Source of the DNA: Nevskiales bacterium | GTDB lineage: Bacteria; Pseudomonadota; Gammaproteobacteria; Steroidobacterales; GCA-2729495 | Assembly: GCA_011526045.1 (NCBI GenBank) | Contig: WYBE01000048.1 | Coordinates: 1 to 38,607, forward strand | Length of the DNA: 38,607 bases | Reading direction: 5' to 3' | Shown here: one piece after another, positions 1,975 to 15,328 of the stretch | How the letters are laid out: the number at the start of each line of letters is the position of its first letter | Position numbering within the stretch: the first letter of the stretch is position 1 | The notes under the pieces: generated by a model | What the model was told of the DNA's origin: nothing | Seen by the model: the letters and a program-made list of their open reading frames with translations, nothing else | Databases searched by the model: none | Translations under genes and position numbers: made by a program

Positions 1975-4900
1975 TCACTCGAGCGGCCTGAGCTCACCAT
2001 GCGGGTTGACCGACAGCTGCAAGCGTGTGCGGATCGGCTCCGGTGCGACTGCCGCCTCCGGCAGCGTGGCCCAGGAGTCTGTGTCATTGATTCGCAGGAC
2101 CGTGGGACGGGCCGTCGAGGCGCGGACGAGCACGAGCTGTTGGCGAGCCGCTGTCGCCGCCACCACGAGCGTGTCTGCGTCCGGCAGCGGCCGGCTGCGC
2201 TGCACGTCGAGCCCGGCGGCATCGACCCGCAGCGTGTGCAGCCATGCGCCCGTCTGCGCCATGACCCGCCTGCCGTCGGCACCGAACCACAGCCGGTCCA
2301 CCGGCGCCGCCGCCGTAAAAACCCGTCGCAGTGCTGTGCCGGAGGCCAGTTGCCAGAGTCGCACCGTGTGATCGGCACCGGCGGTCGCGATCAGGCTGCC
2401 ATCGGGGCTGACCGCCACGCGCCGGACGCGATTCCCGGCTCCGGCGAATACGGTCGTCGCACCACGGCGCCAATCCCAGCGCGTCAGCCCGTCATCGTCC
2501 CCGGCAATCAGCACATACCGCCCGTCCGGTGTGACCGCAAGGCGCGGGTGCCTGGCGCGGATCAGCACACGCGCGCGCACGGCACCGGTGGTGCTGTCGA
2601 GCACCTGCACCGAACCGCGGCTTGCCGCCACCAGTTCGTCGCCGCCGGCGAGGAACACCAGGTCCAGCACGGACCCGTCACCCTGGTTCGCGACAAAGTT
2701 GCGAGGCGCGCCGCCGGCCACCTCCCAAACCCGGATCGTGCCCCCTATGGAACCGCTGGCCACCAGCCGACTGCCGGCGTCGAACGCCAGGCGGGTTACT
2801 GCCGCAGAGTGCCCGATGAATCCGGGTCCGGTCTCGCCGCCGAGGCGCAACTCCGCTTCCGGGCCGAGCGGCACGATCCGGACGTCGCCGGTCAGCGTGC
2901 CTACGGCCACATGCCCGCGATCGGGGCTGACCGCGAGCGCTGCCGCACCCGGACTGAACGCGGACAGGGCCGCCGCGCCCCGCCAGGCCAATGACCACAA
3001 CTTGATCGCCTTGCGGCCATCGTAGGTCAGAAGCAGCGCCGAACCGGGCAGGAAGCGGGGCTGTGCCGCGGCAGTCGCCGGCGCACTGCCCGCTCCGCCC
3101 ATGCCCGGCTGGATGGCGAAGCCCACCCGCTCGCCACCCGGCAGAGCCAGCAACTCGAAGCCGCGGCTCAGGTTGCCGGCGACCAGACCGGTGCCGTCCG
3201 GAGAAAACGCCGTTTGCCACCTGCCGCTGCCCGCACGGGCCAGCACCGGGCGGCAGCCCGCGGTGAGGTCCCAGAGGCGCAGATGACCCGTACTGTCGGT
3301 CGTCAGTAGCCAGCGGCCGCCCGGATCGAAACTCACCGAGAGCGGTTCGCCGGGGTGCTCGCACTCGGCGAGCAGCGAACGCTCGCGCACGCGCCACACG
3401 CGTACGAAATGCTCACCGTCGCTGACGGCCAGCAACTCACCCCGCGCATCGACCGCCGCCACCGGAGTCGCGCTGCCGGTCACGATGCTGCCGATGGCGG
3501 TCATGCCCTTGAGATCCCAGAGCGTCTGGCTGCTCGCATCCGGGCCCTGCTCGCTGGCGTGGACGAGGTAGCGACCGTCCGCAGACATCAGGGGCATCCC
3601 GGAACGCTCCCCGGCCAGGCGCGGCAGCCGGCCGACAACCCGTCCGCTGGCGGCCTCCCGCAATTCCAGCTCCCGCTCGCCGATCAACATGACGGCAGAG
3701 TGGCCGAGCACGAATCGCGCGCTCACCAGTTCGGCCGGCCGCGGCAGGCGCGCGATCGACCGCCCGGAAGCGACGTCCCATACGACGATGTCACCACGGC
3801 TGGCCGCATCGGCCGACCAGGACAGAGCCCTGCGCCCGCCGGGGCCCAGCACGCTCATGGCCGCGAGCGCCGGCTGCGGCTCGGGAATCGCCCCTGTCCC
3901 GTCAGCGCCCGCCGCCGGCACATCGTGGACCGCGACCCCGTCGATCTCGATCGACCACGTCAGCAGGCTGCCGGCAACACCCTGGCGGACGTCGGAGAAC
4001 ATGCCACTCCAAGTTCCAGCCGCGCTTTGCTCGAGCAATGGCAACAGCTCCCGGTGCTGGCGCGAATCGAAGCGGAACTCGCCCGCGTGACCGCTCGCGC
4101 GAGCGTCGGCAATGCGCAACATCGCCTGCCGACCGGAGGGCGCGCGAAGCACGACCTCGACGTCCTGCGCCCGGGCATGGTTCAGGCGCAAGGTCAGCAA
4201 CAGGCGGCGCCCGGAGCGTGCAGCCGGGAACACGAGCCGGCGCTGCAGCGGCCGCACTTCCTCGGCGGACAACGCCAGCCGTTGCTCGCGCTGGATGCTG
4301 CCGTTGCCGATGCGCCAGACCGCAACCTCGTGCCGTTCGTCCAGCGTGGTGATGAGTCCGCTGTCCGGATCGACCTCGAGACTCGTCAGCGGCGCGTCGG
4401 GACGCGCGGTGGCCAGCAGGCCCTCCATACTGCTGCCCAGCAATTCGGCCAGTTGTATTTCACGCTCGCGCGTCGGTTCCATCAGGCTCTGCAGCGTGTA
4501 GAGAATCGCGCCATCACGATCACCGCGCTCAGCCATGGTGGCGGCGCGACGATCCCAGAACTCGGCGAGCAGCAGCCGGGCGCGCGCCTCGCCACCGGGA
4601 AGACCCGCGAGCCGCTCGCCAATGCGCTGTACCTCGGGCAGGCGATCGGCGCGCCGACTCCGGCCGACCAGGTAATCGGCGAACAGGCGGTCGGCTTCCG
4701 CACCGAAGCCGGGGAACATGCGCAGCCGTTCCCAGGCGTCGCGCGCCACCACGAACGACTGCCGGTCCGCCTTGAGCGCGCTTACGTAGGGTCGCGGCAG
4801 GTACTCGCTGTACCAGACGGGCAGCACCACCACCGCCAGCACGAGCGCCAGCACGGCTGCCACGCCCTGCCAGGTGAACGGCAGGTTGCGATTCACCCAG

Positions 4901-5979
4901 AGCATGGTGAAGGCGCCCGCATAAACGCGGTTGCGGAGCGCGAGTACGCCGTCGGCATCCACGATCAGACCGAGATCGAGCAACTCGCGCTGCGCCGGCT
5001 GCGCGCGCTCCGCCGGTATCCGGCTGCCCTTGCTCACGCGTCCGTAAAGGGTCAGGCAGGCGGCCCGTCGCGGTGTTCGCCGGGTGGCCTGTGCCGCGAG
5101 GTACGCGAGATGCGAATCGCCGCGCAGCGAGTTGCGACCGAAGAAGAGCCGCGCCACTGTCCGGTCGATGCTGGCCTCATCCACCTGCAGCGGCGTGCGT
5201 CGCGCGAGCGCGCGGTACACCTTCTGCGAAAGATACGGCTGGCCGGCGGTCCAGTGCCAGACCCGTTCGGCCACCACGCTGCCCGCCGCGGCGGAAATAT
5301 CCAGCCCGCGACTGAACGTGCGCAACTCGCCGGGCTGAAAGTCGCGCAGCTCGACTGCGGCGCTGATGCCGAAGAGAGAATCGTGCCGGGAGCGGAGCAG
5401 GTGCGCGGCGCCCGTGATGCCGAGCAGCCCGAATGTCAGGCGCTGGTACTCCGGCTCGGTGGCACGGGCGTCGAAGCAGGCGCGGATCGCGTCGAAAACA
5501 TCCCAGGCTTCACGCTGCGCCGAGACTGCCTCGATACGATCGAGCAGGAGCACGATCGGCCGGTTGGTGCTCTGGAGGACGACTTCCAGAAAAAAATCAC
5601 GCAGCCGCTGGCGGATCGTCAGGCCGCTGCGCGACTGCCACCAACCGGTCATCTCCGAGCGGATGCGCAACTCGCGCACGATGCGATAGGCGAAGCTGTA
5701 ATACCAGCGCCCGACATCGTCGGCCACGTTGCGGCCCCCGATGTCGGCGAGATCCAGGGTGGCAACCTCGATTCCTTCGCTGCGCAGGCGATGGGCGGCC
5801 TGCGCCAGCAGGCTCGTCTTGCCCATCTGGTGCGGCGCCAGCACGTGACAGAAGTCACGCGCGCGCAGCCGCTCGTACAACTGCTGATCGGCCTCGCGGA
5901 AAATATAGACCTGCCGGTCGGGCGGCACCGGGCCGCCGACCACGAAGAAGCTGTCGTCTGGTCCTGTTGTCCTGCTCAT
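1975..5979 (-). CDS. AAA/nSTAND-TM-WD40 receptor with P-domain-like insert
   Basis: The product has 1334 residues. Residues 10-260 match the AAA_35-type nSTAND ATPase: a VYIFREADQQLY segment, Walker A APHQMGKTSLL (48-58) and Walker B VLLLDRIE (about 143-150). A winged-helix-like region (about 260-350) precedes one transmembrane helix (369-390). After a helical linker (400-520), WD40 repeats begin near 530 and continue from about 705 to the end, with clear units such as GTIRVWEV and HTVRLWQL. Residues 595-681 resemble the jelly-roll P-domain of proprotein convertases (VEVVLRAPSG, AAGTWSGMFSD, LLTWSIEIDG). With the ATPase in the cytoplasm, the propeller would be periplasmic. The start at 5979 gives the family N terminus; an upstream frame extension is Arg/Ala-rich and rejected. 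Role unknown; a signalling or conflict receptor is inference. Confidence 0.85.
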   Translation of the reverse strand: MSRTTGPDDSFFVVGGPVPPDRQVYIFREADQQLYERLRARDFCHVLAPHQMGKTSLLAQAAHRLRSEGIEVATLDLADIGGRNVADDVGRWYYSFAYRIVRELRIRSEMTGWWQSRSGLTIRQRLRDFFLEVVLQSTNRPIVLLLDRIEAVSAQREAWDVFDAIRACFDARATEPEYQRLTFGLLGITGAAHLLRSRHDSLFGISAAVELRDFQPGELRTFSRGLDISAAAGSVVAERVWHWTAGQPYLSQKVYRALARRTPLQVDEASIDRTVARLFFGRNSLRGDSHLAYLAAQATRRTPRRAACLTLYGRVSKGSRIPAERAQPAQRELLDLGLIVDADGVLALRNRVYAGAFTMLWVNRNLPFTWQGVAAVLALVLAVVVLPVWYSEYLPRPYVSALKADRQSFVVARDAWERLRMFPGFGAEADRLFADYLVGRSRRADRLPEVQRIGERLAGLPGGEARARLLLAEFWDRRAATMAERGDRDGAILYTLQSLMEPTREREIQLAELLGSSMEGLLATARPDAPLTSLEVDPDSGLITTLDERHEVAVWRIGNGSIQREQRLALSAEEVRPLQRRLVFPAARSGRRLLLTLRLNHARAQDVEVVLRAPSGRQAMLRIADARASGHAGEFRFDSRQHRELLPLLEQSAAGTWSGMFSDVRQGVAGSLLTWSIEIDGVAVHDVPAAGADGTGAIPEPQPALAAMSVLGPGGRRALSWSADAASRGDIVVWDVASGRSIARLPRPAELVSARFVLGHSAVMLIGERELELREAASGRVVGRLPRLAGERSGMPLMSADGRYLVHASEQGPDASSQTLWDLKGMTAIGSIVTGSATPVAAVDARGELLAVSDGEHFVRVWRVRERSLLAECEHPGEPLSVSFDPGGRWLLTTDSTGHLRLWDLTAGCRPVLARAGSGRWQTAFSPDGTGLVAGNLSRGFELLALPGGERVGFAIQPGMGGAGSAPATAAAQPRFLPGSALLLTYDGRKAIKLWSLAWRGAAALSAFSPGAAALAVSPDRGHVAVGTLTGDVRIVPLGPEAELRLGGETGPGFIGHSAAVTRLAFDAGSRLVASGSIGGTIRVWEVAGGAPRNFVANQGDGSVLDLVFLAGGDELVAASRGSVQVLDSTTGAVRARVLIRARHPRLAVTPDGRYVLIAGDDDGLTRWDWRRGATTVFAGAGNRVRRVAVSPDGSLIATAGADHTVRLWQLASGTALRRVFTAAAPVDRLWFGADGRRVMAQTGAWLHTLRVDAAGLDVQRSRPLPDADTLVVAATAARQQLVLVRASTARPTVLRINDTDSWATLPEAAVAPEPIRTRLQLSVNPHGELRPLE

Positions 5980-6089
5980 GACGGGCTCGGCGCGATTCTC
6001 TCCGAACGCCGCGGCGATGACCAATGCGCGCGGGCTTCCCGGATTGCACGCCCCGGCCCTTGTTCCTATGATTCGCCCGGTCCACGCCC

Positions 6090-6695
6090 ATGTCACTGAC
6101 GAGCGCATCCATTTTCGGCACCGCGGTCCTGCTCCCTGGGAATCCGCCGGTGATCTGCCGTGACACTGCAGCAGCACGCCGCTGGGCACGGCCCATCGCA
6201 CGGTGGCTCGCGCGGCGCGAGATGCGCGCGCTCGTCGCGCTCGCCGGCGAAGAGTCGATCCCGGTACTGCTCGGCTGGGACGGGCGGCGGCTGTATCGGA
6301 GCGCAATCCAGGGCAACACGCTGCGCGTGGCCGCTCCGCGCGACCCGGCGTACTTTCGCGCGGCGCTGCGGGTGCTCGCGCGCATGCACCGGCGCGGCGT
6401 AGCGCACAACGACCTCGCGCGCGAGGAGAACCTGCTGGTGACTGCGGCAAACCGACCGGCGCTGATCGATTTCCAGCTCGCCTGGTGCGACCGCTCGCGC
6501 GGGCGCCTGTTTCGCCTGATGGCGCGCGAGGATCTGCGTCACCTGCTCAAACACAAGCGGTGCTATTGTCCCGAACGACTCACGGCACGGGAACGCCGCC
6601 TGCTCGCCACGCCTGGCGCCGCGGCGCGGCTGTGGCGCGCCGGGCCGCAACGCCTGCTGGCCTCGCTGGCAAGGATGCTGACACCGCGCCCCTGA
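6090..6695 (+). CDS. Small RIO/lipopolysaccharide-kinase-like protein
   Basis: The product has 201 residues, short for a protein kinase. The catalytic loop is HNDLAREENLL (H106, D108, N114), and the metal-binding motif is IDFQL (D127), with Gln in place of the usual Gly of DFG. The HND pattern is shared by RIO-like and WaaP/Kdo-kinase-like families that phosphorylate sugars or proteins. The N-terminal lobe is short and I see no clear glycine loop, though K/R-rich strands are present. It diverges from the AAA-WD40 gene across a 110-bp gap, so the two may share control. The substrate cannot be read from the sequence. Confidence 0.7.
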   Translation: MSLTSASIFGTAVLLPGNPPVICRDTAAARRWARPIARWLARREMRALVALAGEESIPVLLGWDGRRLYRSAIQGNTLRVAAPRDPAYFRAALRVLARMHRRGVAHNDLAREENLLVTAANRPALIDFQLAWCDRSRGRLFRLMAREDLRHLLKHKRCYCPERLTARERRLLATPGAAARLWRAGPQRLLASLARMLTPRP

Positions 6696-6738: not shown

Positions 6739-6981
6739 TTGGAGATCTCTCAACCGAACAACGCCACGCCTGAACTGCGCACCGAGCGCAGGTTCGGCAT
6801 CCGGGTCGGCTCTCCGCCCGGCGATCCATTCTCCCGCCTCGTCGGCGCCGACTGGCACAACCTGCGATGGTTCGCGACGCGGGAGGAGCGCGACCAGGCC
6901 TTGCGGGAGATCGCCTCGAGGCACCGCTACTCGCGCATCGGTGACGAGCCGAGCATCGTGCTGGAACCCGTCGAGCGCTGA
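6739..6981 (+). CDS. Small hypothetical protein, TTG start
   Basis: The product has 80 residues and no signal peptide, membrane segment or family I recognise. The start is a TTG, chosen because AAAGGAG sits seven bases upstream (6725-6731). The middle, DWHNLRWFATREERDQALREIA, reads like a compact alpha/beta domain, and the composition is that of a real protein. It ends 29 bp before the TonB-dependent receptor gene and may be co-transcribed with it. Confidence 0.6.
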   Translation: MEISQPNNATPELRTERRFGIRVGSPPGDPFSRLVGADWHNLRWFATREERDQALREIASRHRYSRIGDEPSIVLEPVER

Positions 6982-7010: not shown

Positions 7011-9065
7011 ATGAACCGCTTCACCCGGTCCTGCTGCCTGCTTGCCGGGGCCATGGCCGTGGCCGCAGGGGCCGCCGAGCCGGCGGGCCGGATCGTGGTG
7101 ACCGCGCAGCGCGAGCCCACCGATTCACTCACCCTGGTCGGCAATACGGCACGCATCGAAGAGGACCGGCTGCGCCTGCTCGCGCCGACACATGCCGCCG
7201 ACCTCGGCCGCCAGGCAGCAGGCACCTGGCTCGCGCGCGGCGCGCAGCAGGAGAGCCTGCCGGCCATACGCTCCCCGGTGCTCACCGGGCCCGGCTCCTG
7301 CGGCGCCTTCCTGATGCTGGAGGACGGCATCCCGGTTCGACCGGCCGGGTTCTGCAACGTCAACGAACTGTTCGAGGTACTCACCGAGCAGGCCGTTGCC
7401 ATGGAAGTGCTGCGCGGTCCGTCCGGTGCCCTGTACGGCGCGGGCGGCATGCACGGTACGCTGAACTTCCTGCTGCCTGAACCGGGCGGCCCCGACGGTG
7501 TGTCGGGCAGCGGCGAGCTCGGCCCGAATCACTACTGGCGTGGCACGACCCGCTGGGACGCGCACACCGCCGGCGCTGCCCTCACCGGCGGCGTCATGGT
7601 CGATCACGACGGCGACTTCCGCGACGATGCGGGTTACCAGCAGGCGAAGGGCTTCGCCAAGCTGCGCCGTGAACTGGCGTCGGGCGAACTCGACGTCGGC
7701 TTCACGGCAACAGTGCTGGACCAGGACAGCGCCGGATACATCGTCGGCAAAGACGCGTACCGCGACCCTGCCCTGCGCACCGAGAACCTCAATCCGGGAT
7801 CCTACCGCGACGCCGACAGCCAGCGACTGCAGGCGCACTGGATTCCGGCCGCAGATCATCCCTGGGCAGGCACGGACCTGCGCGCCTTCCTGCGCCGTTC
7901 CAGCATGGAGTTCCTGCAGCACTTCCTGCCCGGGCAGCCGCGCGAGGAAAACAGCCAGTGGAGCGGCGGGCTGATGGCGCTGCGGGAGCGCGAACTCACA
8001 GGCGATGCGCGGCTCGCCCTCGGGCTCGACCTCGAGTTCGCCCACGGGACACTCGAGGAATTCCAGGCCGGTGAATCGGGCCTCGGCACGAGCCCGCCCG
8101 GCCAACACTACGACTATGTCGCGCAAAGTTATCTCGGCGCGCCATTTGTGCGCCTCGCCCTGCCGCTCACGCCGGCCTGGCTGCTGCAGCTCGGGCTGCG
8201 TGCCGAGTACATGCTCTACGACTACGACAACCGCATGATCGACGGCAACACCCGCGACGACGGCACGCCGTGCACTCCCGCGCCCTGCCGGTTCAGCCGG
8301 CCGGCCGATCGCAGCGACGATTTCCTCAATCTCGCGCCCGACATCGGCCTGCTGTATCGCCTGTCGCCCGTAACCTCCGCCTACGCGCGACTCATTCGCG
8401 GTTTTCGCCCGCCGCAGGCGACCGAGCTCTACCGGCTGCAGGCGCAGCAGGCGGTGGCCGATCTCGATTCGGAAACGCTCGACAGCGCCGAGCTCGGGCT
8501 GCGCTGGCAGCCGGGCCCGCTGCGCCTCGAACTCGTGGGCTTCCTCATGAAGAAGCGCGATTACATCTTCCAGGATGCCGACCGGTTCAATGTAAGCGAC
8601 GGCAGGACGCGCCATCGCGGCCTGGAGCTGCAGGCCGACGCCCGGGCGTCGGCCGGGGCGTATGCAGGCTTCGCCGGAACCTGGGCGAGGCACAGTTACG
8701 GCTTCAGCAGCAGCACGCCCGGCGGCGAGCGGATCGTCACGGGCAACGACGTCGACACTGCCCCGCACACACTGGCAAGCGCGCACATCGGCCTCGACCG
8801 CAGTGTCGGGCTCGCCGAGTTCGAATGGGTGCACGTCGGCTCGCATTACCTCGACGCGGCCAACACGGCGCGCTACGGCGGCCACAACCTCCTCAACCTG
8901 CGCGCCCTCTGGCGGGCCACGCCAGCCCTGTCGCTCACCCTGCGGGTGAACAACCTGGCCGATGAGTACTACGCCGAGCGTGCGGACTTCGCCTTCGGCG
9001 ACTACCGCTACTTTCCGGGCCGCGACCGCGAGCTGTACGTGGAACTCGCCTACAACGGCCGCTGA
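7011..9065 (+). CDS. TonB-dependent outer-membrane receptor
   Basis: The product has 684 residues, normal for the family, which imports iron complexes, vitamins or other large nutrients across the outer membrane using TonB energy. A signal peptide (about 1-24) leads to a TonB-box-like IVVTAQREP, then the plug domain: [19 protein letters not shown], then [19 protein letters not shown], the standard plug signature, at about 126-145. The rest is a beta barrel ending in [18 protein letters not shown], with alternating aromatic residues as expected at the last strand. No neighbouring gene indicates the substrate. A long frame on the opposite strand is only a codon shadow. Confidence 0.92.
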
Positions 9066-12488: not shown

Positions 12489-14075
12489 TCAGCCCGGCAC
12501 CTGCAGTCTCGCAATCTCATCCCGGTAATGCCGCTCTTCCGCCACAGCCCGCGCATCGCTCCAGCCCAGGTGCTGACGCACGATCGCCAGCGCCGCCGGC
12601 AGGACCGCGGTGCCGAGGTCCGCACCGAGCCCGAGCATCGTGCGACGCATGAGACAGTCGGCGAGCGTCGTTGCCAGCTCATCCTCGAAGGCGAAGACGA
12701 TCTCCGCGGCGAGCGCATGACTGCGCGGGCAGATCTCCGCAGCCAGAGCCGGCGTCTTCGCGGCCAGGGCGGCCACCGCGGCCGCACGCGTCCCGTATAG
12801 CCCGGTAAGGCGCGCAGCCGTCGCCGCCGACAGGCCAGAACGGCCGCAGAGCTCGGCAGCGAGCGGCACCGGGTCGGCAAGCGCACCGGGCAATGGCCGC
12901 CGGGCCGTGTCGCATGACCGCAGGCTCCCCGGCACCTTGCGGGCGAGACGGTTCACCACCTGCTCGGCAAGGCTCCGGTAGGTGGTGAGCTTGCCGCCGA
13001 TGACAGAGTACAGGCCGCGCGCAACGGTGCGATGGTGGCGGATCAGGTGCCGGCGCGTGATCGCAGCCTGCTCGGCCGCCGCAACCGCCGGCAGCGGACG
13101 CACGCCAACGTAGCAGTACCGGATATGCGCGCGATCGAGCGCCGCGGCCGGGAACAGCCGCGAGGTCTCGGCGAGGAGATAGTCGATTTCGCCGGGGTCG
13201 GCCGCCACCCGCGCAGGGTCCCCGTCGAAGGCGACGTCGGTTGTGCCGATGAGCGTCATGCCGTTCCACGGCAGCACAAAGAACGGTCGCCCGTCCGCGC
13301 CCGCCTCCGCGTAACAGGCCGACGCGCCGAGTCCGGGCAAGGCATCCACGACAATGTGCGTGCCCCGGGAACCGCCGATGAAACGGCGCAGGCGCCGGCC
13401 CGGCAACGAGCCGACGAGCTGGTCCACCCACGGCCCGGTGGCGTTCACCACCAGCGGCGCGGCAAGTCGGCTCACCGCCCCGTCGCGCAGGTCGCGCACC
13501 TCGACACCGATGACTCGCCCGCCATCGACCTGGATGCGTTCGGCACGCGTCCAGGCGCGCAACTGCGCGCCGGCCTGCTGCGCGTCGAGCAGGTTCTCCA
13601 GCACCAGCCGTTCCGGGAACACCACCTGCGCGTCGAAGTAGCTCGCCGCACCCCGCAGGGTCTCGGTCTGCAGGCCGGGCAGCGCCGCGACCGCACCAGC
13701 CACATCGAGCATCCGGTGACGCGGGAGCGACTTGCCGGCGGAGAGCAGGTCGTAGAGCCACATGCCGGCGCGGATCGTCGCGCGGCCCCGGCGGCCACCG
13801 CGGTATACCGGAATCACCAGCGGCAGCGGCCGCACCAGGTGCGGCGCGGTGCGGAGCAGTATTTCGCGCTCGCGCAACGATTCGAAGACGAGGGAAAATT
13901 CCGCGAACTCCAGGTACCGCAGCCCACCGTGGATCAGCCGGCTCGACCAGCGCGAGGTGGCGTTGCAGAAATCACCCTGCTCGACCAGGCATACGCGCAT
14001 CCCGCGGCAGGCGGCATCGCGCGCAATGCCGGCGCCGTTGATGCCGCCGCCAATGATGATCACGTCAAAGGACAC
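12489..14075 (-). CDS. glpD: Aerobic glycerol-3-phosphate dehydrogenase
   Basis: The product has 528 residues. GlpD oxidises glycerol 3-phosphate to dihydroxyacetone phosphate at the inner membrane and passes electrons to quinone. The FAD-binding motif VIIIGGGINGAGIARDAA begins three residues after the start, then EQGDFCNATSRWSSRLIHGG and LRYLEFAEF, all hallmarks of the family. Later come VVNATGPWVD, LPWNGMTLIGTTD and SVIGGKLTTYRSLAE. The C-terminal domain (from about residue 385) is the helical cap. A GTG at 14075 is the only start consistent with the FAD motif; no ATG lies in frame close by. No glpF, glpK or glpR is adjacent, so glycerol use is not organised as an operon here. Confidence 0.93.
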   Translation of the reverse strand: MSFDVIIIGGGINGAGIARDAACRGMRVCLVEQGDFCNATSRWSSRLIHGGLRYLEFAEFSLVFESLREREILLRTAPHLVRPLPLVIPVYRGGRRGRATIRAGMWLYDLLSAGKSLPRHRMLDVAGAVAALPGLQTETLRGAASYFDAQVVFPERLVLENLLDAQQAGAQLRAWTRAERIQVDGGRVIGVEVRDLRDGAVSRLAAPLVVNATGPWVDQLVGSLPGRRLRRFIGGSRGTHIVVDALPGLGASACYAEAGADGRPFFVLPWNGMTLIGTTDVAFDGDPARVAADPGEIDYLLAETSRLFPAAALDRAHIRYCYVGVRPLPAVAAAEQAAITRRHLIRHHRTVARGLYSVIGGKLTTYRSLAEQVVNRLARKVPGSLRSCDTARRPLPGALADPVPLAAELCGRSGLSAATAARLTGLYGTRAAAVAALAAKTPALAAEICPRSHALAAEIVFAFEDELATTLADCLMRRTMLGLGADLGTAVLPAALAIVRQHLGWSDARAVAEERHYRDEIARLQVPG

Positions 14076-14519
14076 GCACTGCGTTTCCGTTCGCCAGGCA
14101 GCGCGGAGCCTAGCATGGCACGGGCAGCGGGCACCGCTGGCGCAGTTCACATCGTCGCGGACCGCCGGTCCGGGCCGTACGGCCGGCGAGGCCCACGCTG
14201 CGCGGCAGTTGGTGAGCGACCCGCCTCTCCCGAAGGGCCGCGCTCCAATGCTGGCCAGTGCTGCCGTGGTCACCCGCGCGGCAGGTGCCGCCCCGCACGC
14301 GCTCCGGTATTCAGTTGCAGGCGCGATCCGCCGGCCGCCCGCCTGCCCGCGCCGTGCACCCCCGCGCGAAAACACCCGGCGCCCGCAGGCGATCCGTGCT
14401 AAGGATATGTGCCTGATGCCGGGAATGGAGTGCCGAGGATGCCAACACGCTGGTCGACCATGATCCGACTGCCGGCATTTCACCGGCGAGTTGTATCCGA
14501 CGGTGGCGGGACGACGAAA
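14076..14519. other. Intergenic gap with no gene
   Basis: This 444-bp divergent gap lies between glpD and the secreted-protein gene. Frames through it on both strands are open but Arg/Pro/Ala-rich and lack ribosome binding sites. It should hold both promoters; I see no clear -10/-35 pair. Confidence 0.5.
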
Positions 14520-15212
14520 ATGCGAGTCAGCTCGCTGTCCGCGGCAATGCTCGCCCTGGCCGTCTCGTGCCCATCGGCAAGCGCCGCGCTGCCCCCGCCC
14601 ACCTCTGCCGAGTTCTGCGTCGCCGTGCAGAAGCTCCTGGCGAGCACGAACGTCGAAGGAGAAAACACCGTCTTCACCGATATGCGGGACTACCGCAAGT
14701 CGAAGCCCATGGTCGATCCGTTGCAGATCTTCCAGGTGGTGAGTTACGCCGGTGCGATGCCCGTCATGGTCTCGTGCAAGGTCAAGACCGCCGCGCACCT
14801 GCGCGCCGCCTACGGGGAACAGGCGGCAGGTGAGCAACGATTCTGTCCGGCGGTCACGCGCCAGGTGCTGGCCGAGGCGGTCGCGCAGCTTCAGGCGTCG
14901 GGCCAGGGCGCGGCAGCGGAGCGTGCGGCGGCGTTCATCGTCGATGACAACGAACCCTATGCCACGGGCAGCAGCTACCTCGCCGACTTCGCGCTGAGCT
15001 ACCGCGCTGATGACGGGCGGGTGCACCTCAACTCGCCCGGCCTGTTCCAGGATTACGACAGCTGGTTCACCCCGCTCCTGCCGGAGCGCTTCCAGGGGCA
15101 AAGTTACTGTCATCTCCCCACGGTGGACTACATCAAGGCACTGGCGACCGGGGCGATGCAGCCGGGCACCGTCATGACAGGCGCCGAAGACGCGCCGGTG
15201 ACGCCAAGGTAA
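14520..15212 (+). CDS. Secreted hypothetical protein, about 230 residues
   Basis: A signal peptide spans about residues 1-22 (MRVSSLSAAMLALAVSCPSASA). The mature protein has cysteines in EFCVAVQ, MVSCKVK, QRFCPAV and QSYCHLP, which suggests disulfides in the periplasm. The four cysteines and the SYLADFALSY segment look like a folded domain, but I do not recognise a family. The ATG at 14520 is preferred because it puts the signal peptide at the very N terminus; an upstream ATG at 14460 would add 20 residues. It stands alone between glpD and the convergent MFS gene. Confidence 0.65.
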   Translation: MRVSSLSAAMLALAVSCPSASAALPPPTSAEFCVAVQKLLASTNVEGENTVFTDMRDYRKSKPMVDPLQIFQVVSYAGAMPVMVSCKVKTAAHLRAAYGEQAAGEQRFCPAVTRQVLAEAVAQLQASGQGAAAERAAAFIVDDNEPYATGSSYLADFALSYRADDGRVHLNSPGLFQDYDSWFTPLLPERFQGQSYCHLPTVDYIKALATGAMQPGTVMTGAEDAPVTPR

Positions 15213-15328
15213 CCGGGCTCCCGCCGGTGCACGGCGTGGCGGATGGACCTGCTCGCCGGGCCTCCGGACTCTCCCCGTCCCCGGGCCTCGCCGCCGGCTG
15301 CGGCGCCGGCTGAGCACACCGGCAGGCG

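Follow-up and report, generated by a model that had tools for sequence, protein, structure and literature searches.

A P-domain of the proprotein-convertase type between WD40 propeller blades in a putative trans-envelope AAA_35 receptor of a gammaproteobacterial order

In a 38,607-nucleotide stretch from a Nevskiales bacterium (GTDB order Steroidobacterales; assembly GCA_011526045.1, contig WYBE01000048.1, positions 1 to 38,607 of the forward strand; hereafter the window), a gene at 1975..5979 on the reverse strand encodes a protein of 1334 amino acids (aa), to which relatives align over the entire length. We refer to this protein as the receptor, and all features within it lie on the reverse (-) strand. 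It begins with an AAA_35 domain (PF14516) at residues 16-261 (5197..5934; 92.7 bits against a cut-off of 27), followed by a region reaching to about residue 366, a hydrophobic segment at 372-390, an arm at 396-514 and two WD40 propellers. AAA_35 is rare in the class, being found above the cut-off in 8 of 274 genomes, and this is the sole match in the genome of the window. A 914-aa open reading frame (3355-6099, + strand) runs antisense to the receptor gene and is taken as a high-GC artefact, because the GC content is 67.8%.

A reading made from the sequence alone had proposed a P-domain at residues 595-681. In agreement, the Pfam profile P_proprotein (PF01483) matches residues 595-678 with 23.8 bits, which lies above its gathering cut-off of 21, and the P-domain profile matched all 51 family regions that were scanned at an E-value of 0.01 or better. 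An AlphaFold2 model of the region, built from the window protein and 50 of the 69 P-bearing full-length loci, reached a mean predicted local distance difference test score (pLDDT) of 91.9, and the best matches of the predicted fold in the PDB were the P-domains of furin, Kex2 and Aeromonas sobria ASP (fold match at residues 575-680; 3940..4257). A profile of the family's P region also found a P-domain in the PDB; a PDB search with the single P-region sequence found none. By profile and predicted fold, we conclude that residues 595-678 are a real P-domain of the convertase jelly-roll type. No S8 catalytic domain was found in the receptor among the best 25 of 37 Pfam matches, the other 12 having E-values above 0.0011. 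The receptor therefore differs from subtilisin-like proprotein convertases, which combine S8 with a P-domain, in lacking an S8 match at E 0.0011 or better, and from furin, Kex2 and ASP in that its P-domain lies between propeller blades rather than in a protease.

The surroundings of the P-domain were modelled with AlphaFold2 over residues 392-1334, using the window protein and 56 chosen relatives (pLDDT 89.9, predicted template modelling score 0.86). The model predicts a helical arm at residues 396-514 (4438..4794) and, in our reading of the strand list, two tandem propellers of about seven blades each. Strands at 521-525 would close propeller 1, whose predicted blade 1 spans residues 531-569 (4273..4389); blade 2 starts at 707, and blades 2-7 would occupy residues 707-945 (3145..3861), the grouping of strands into blades being interpretive. 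Predicted propeller 2 covers residues 975-1298 (2086..3057) and is supported by both the model and WD40 matches. Thus, in the model, the P-domain sits in the connection between blades 1 and 2 of propeller 1. The WD40 profile PF00400 scored 82.2 bits against a cut-off of 27, and the predicted structure of this C-terminal half resembles tandem-propeller proteins, including Apaf-1. Profile matches and model together uphold the layout that the sequence-only reading had described: AAA_35, then a predicted membrane helix, then WD40 blades with a P-domain among them.

That reading knew of no AAA_35–WD40 fusion with this insert. Dozens of relatives, however, share the layout. We fetched 77 loci with two ATPase-domain patterns; these came mostly from Gammaproteobacteria and Woeseiaceae metagenome-assembled genomes, with some titled Proteobacteria and two Rhodospirillaceae or Rhodospirillales, and seven under 1100 aa were left out of the alignment and tree. 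The P-domain was present in 69 of the 70 full-length proteins obtained in this way, a count that did not depend on the P-domain. It was also present in 186 of 192 sequences of a larger combined set, which includes P-series proteins found with a query containing the P-domain and hence biased towards it (six proteins are counted in this set under both a P and an L label, and one protein listing covers 120 of 148 proteins). In the 89-row alignment used below, the window's own protein took the place of P0001, P0019, P0020 and P0022 were omitted as members of other families, and P0008 and P0021 start inside AAA_35. The receptor gene occurred in 119 of 246 genomes of the order (32 of 66 genera) and in 21 of 40 genomes of the window's family. 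With up to 15 candidates scored per genome in the family, 18 of the 21 holders had one match and the other three had two complementary pieces, so the gene is present there in one copy; the order-wide survey scored two candidates and was no test of copy number.

Relatives without the P-domain also exist. In P0016, P0018 and L077 of the 89-row alignment a five-residue linker replaces the region 570-702, and in one genome of the window's genus (G022) the receptor matches cover 12-572 and 706-1332, with nothing between them and one open frame throughout. All six P-less sequences among the 192 (five different proteins) keep both propellers. The P-domain columns were left out of the tree, which was a quick build and in which some long branches come together; on it, absence of the P-domain required two changes. 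Since six outgroup rows carry the domain as well, it is likely that its presence is ancestral and that the absences are losses, at least two in number.

The hydrophobic segment at residues 372-390 (4810..4866) is predicted to be a transmembrane helix, with a mean Kyte-Doolittle value of 2.51; the best such segment averaged 2.07 over the 89 rows, the lowest being 1.62. Cysteine was ∼23-fold rarer after the helix (30 of 83,040 residues) than before it (299 of 35,311), and 73 of the 89 rows had none after it. The larger set, from which 6 of 192 rows under 1150 aa were excluded, gave 47 cysteines in 173,856 residues after the helix versus 723 in 73,425 before, with none after it in 157 of 186 rows. 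The helix flanks carried a mean of 2.21 Lys/Arg on the N side versus 1.46 on the C side (more on the N side in 53 rows, equal in 24, fewer in 12), and in 68 of 89 rows the N-side flank had the higher net charge. Because of the cysteine depletion and the mostly agreeing flank charge, we infer that the N terminus is likely inside and the C terminus outside, which would place the WD40/P-domain half in the periplasm. This backs the split into an external recognition part and an internal NTPase that the sequence-only reading suggested. Cys873 (3361..3363) and Cys909 (3253..3255) are the main recurrent cysteines after the helix; 12 rows had both and 77 had neither, with no row having just one (in the larger set, 15 rows had both and 171 neither), and on the tree the pair is one evolutionary gain. 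A disulfide between them is not claimed, given this single gain and, in our reading of the modelled strand list, their positions near opposite ends of neighbouring outer strands.

The protein might instead be wholly cytoplasmic, or the helix a mere tether with both halves inside and the P-domain acting on an internal partner. WD40 propellers are mostly found in intracellular proteins, the flank charge did not favour an inside N terminus in 21 of 89 rows, and cysteine was also scarce in three unrelated WD40 proteins, whose last 550 residues contain 1-3. The depletion may therefore be in part a general trait of WD40 proteins, and the best control for cysteine is the protein's own N-terminal part, against which the ∼23-fold difference was obtained. 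Moreover, P-domains are known from secreted proteins, and the best PDB matches found here are from secretory or secreted proteases. An all-internal arrangement is thus improbable, in our judgement, and we return to the periplasmic reading in what follows.

The conservation of the P-domain bears on what it might do. With five rows left out (P0016, P0018, L077, P0008 and P0021), mean identity over all pairs was 46.4% for the P-domain versus 29.7-37.5% for the propellers. In the Woeseia-like set the corresponding values were 69.1% and 43.3-57.3%, with 71.3% for AAA_35, and in the window's near clade the P-domain had a small lead over the propellers (48.4% versus 41.9-47.3%). Only AAA_35 was better conserved over all pairs and among the Woeseia-like sequences; in the near clade the P-domain ranked third. 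The lead of the P-domain over the propellers suggests a constant partner and disfavours a role in recognising a variable "antigen". Twenty of its columns were conserved in at least 90% of 86 rows, and 14 of these are G, W, P, L or D, which we read as fold-core types.

Such columns would also suit a P-domain that serves as a structural brace or packing module of propeller 1, with ligand binding left to the propellers alone. In convertases, the P-domain stabilises the catalytic domain. Its modelled position in the blade 1–blade 2 connection, its conservation rank and the fact that it can be lost cleanly are all consistent with this role. However, the P-less proteins retain both propellers, so a brace is not required there, and in the Woeseia-like set the domain is conserved almost as well as the ATPase, more than a mere brace would lead one to expect. 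We consider this explanation possible but rather unlikely, and less probable than a P-domain that takes part in binding a constant partner.

In the AAA_35 half, we take residues 48-55 (APHQMGKT; 5815..5838) to be Walker A and residues 142-148 (IVLLLDR; 5536..5556) to be Walker B. G53 and K54 were present in 88 and 87 of the 89 rows and D147 in all 89. The residue after this Asp, position 148, the place of the putative catalytic Walker B Glu, was Glu in 54 of 89 rows and Arg in 27. Of the 34 Woeseia-like rows 31 have Glu, as do all six outgroup rows, and Arg is found in 20 of 22 near-clade rows, including the window protein. Because Arg replaces Glu, the sequences suggest that the window's clade would bind nucleotide yet hardly hydrolyse it, if position 148 is indeed the catalytic Glu. 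STAND NTPases have a P-loop NTPase followed by a winged helix with a GxP motif, and an acidic residue after the Walker B Asp. A candidate GxP was present (all 89 rows have G246, and 88 have P248); the acidic residue was absent from the window protein, which has Arg148. Searched as a profile, the AAA_35 half found no match among STAND proteins of known structure; it gave weak matches to RecA-type P-loop proteins and two insignificant rows, and the nSTAND label of the sequence-only reading was not supported. AAA_35 starts at residue 16 and no effector domain precedes it; consequently, output would need a partner or oligomerisation.

Two genes lie divergently beside the receptor gene: a protein kinase like those of the PRK12274 and PRK09188 models, although below their cut-offs (6090..6695, + strand), and a conserved 80-aa protein without a Pfam or NCBIfam match (6739..6981, + strand). 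Both are syntenic. Among 71 places with at least 1500 bases upstream, the window included, the kinase was beside the receptor in 43 and the 80-aa protein in 60. The latter occurred in 206 of 246 genomes of the order, comprising 109 of 119 genomes with the receptor and 97 of 127 without it. Within the window's genus, the kinase and the 80-aa protein were side by side in three receptor-less genomes (G020, G023 and G024) and both present in two more (G021 and G025). A functional link between the three is unsupported by co-occurrence, and as the two neighbours persist without the receptor, we claim neither as a partner. In the window, G019, G022 and G025 the kinase profile match runs over a TGA, and the C terminus looks shorter than in relatives. 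Further along the window lie a TonB-dependent receptor gene (7011-9065, + strand), which has a relative upstream at 30 of the 71 places, and an FAD-dependent oxidoreductase with a glycerophosphate-oxidase-type C-terminal domain (12489-15317, - strand). The domain matches of the latter begin at residue 417-418, and the first ∼400 residues of its open reading frame may be a spurious extension.

The layout also raised the idea of an anti-phage or conflict-system sensor, in which the propellers or the P-domain would recognise an invader. STAND NTPases and beta-propeller repeats are listed among bacterial conflict-system components (PMC7159879), and propellers are proposed as recognition or scaffold repeats (PMC7159879, PMC8195603). 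The architectures treated there differ from that of the receptor, and the systems described have effector domains and variable regions, whereas here no effector lies ahead of AAA_35, the P-domain is conserved rather than variable and the family is conserved across the order. The sole PADLOC match, HEAT-ARM_XIII (E 1.6e-7), covers WD40 residues 1085-1211, is to a model of 1972 positions and was set aside as a repeat match. A single copy in the family, neighbours common to the group and presence in 119 of 246 genomes also speak against such a sensor, which we regard as very improbable.

Our preferred reading, to which we give about an even chance, is that the protein is a receptor whose periplasmic WD40/P-domain half binds an envelope partner and signals across the membrane to the cytoplasmic AAA_35 half. 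A constant partner from the cell's own envelope would be bound jointly by the P-domain and propellers, and the signal would travel along the helical arm and the one membrane helix to reach the AAA_35 module with its bound nucleotide. This coupling would resemble that of WD40 propellers to the NTPase in Apaf-1, but across a membrane, with output through a partner or oligomerisation; in the Arg148 clade of the window, signalling would proceed by nucleotide binding with little hydrolysis. Several observations weigh against this reading. Besides the cysteine-poor WD40 proteins, the rows with unfavourable flank charge and the Cys873/Cys909 pair discussed above, identity of the P-domain in the near clade is hardly above that of the rest of propeller 1 (47.3%), some lineages do without the P-domain, switching driven by hydrolysis is questionable where the Walker B Glu is Arg, and the neighbours offer synteny only.

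Apaf-1 has an N-terminal CARD and is not known to have a membrane helix or a P-domain, and we know of no P-domain in PkwA. The propeller half of Apaf-1 (PDB 3shf, 3sfz) is alike, whereas the NTPase of the receptor is AAA_35 rather than NB-ARC and nothing precedes it; PkwA of Thermomonospora curvata, whose WD40 domain (PDB 5yzv) is also comparable, is named a Ser/Thr kinase, in contrast to AAA_35 here. No description of the layout was found in the literature searched on AAA_35/WD40, P-domain, STAND and Woeseiaceae, a search whose coverage did not extend to most subscription papers or any preprints. Each part is known by itself; what is new, among ATPases joined to WD40 propellers, is a membrane-spanning combination of them that an order has conserved. 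More tentatively, and with somewhat less than an even chance, we propose a trans-envelope, Apaf-1-like family of a gammaproteobacterial order, in which a periplasmic sensor of two propellers acquired its P-domain from secreted enzymes and drives an AAA_35 module in the cytoplasm, and in which one clade became a binding-only switch through the Walker B Glu-to-Arg change.

When a protein combines a P-loop ATPase with WD40 propellers, it is often regarded as an internal sensor. Here, a family conserved over an order at a shared genomic place has a sensor half with the marks of a periplasmic domain and a P-domain of the protease type. Because nature offers relatives that have or lack the P-domain and that have Glu or Arg at the Walker B position, the roles of the domain and of this residue can be tested directly. 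If the sensor half is indeed periplasmic, the family would give an intracellular P-loop switch a way of sensing the envelope.
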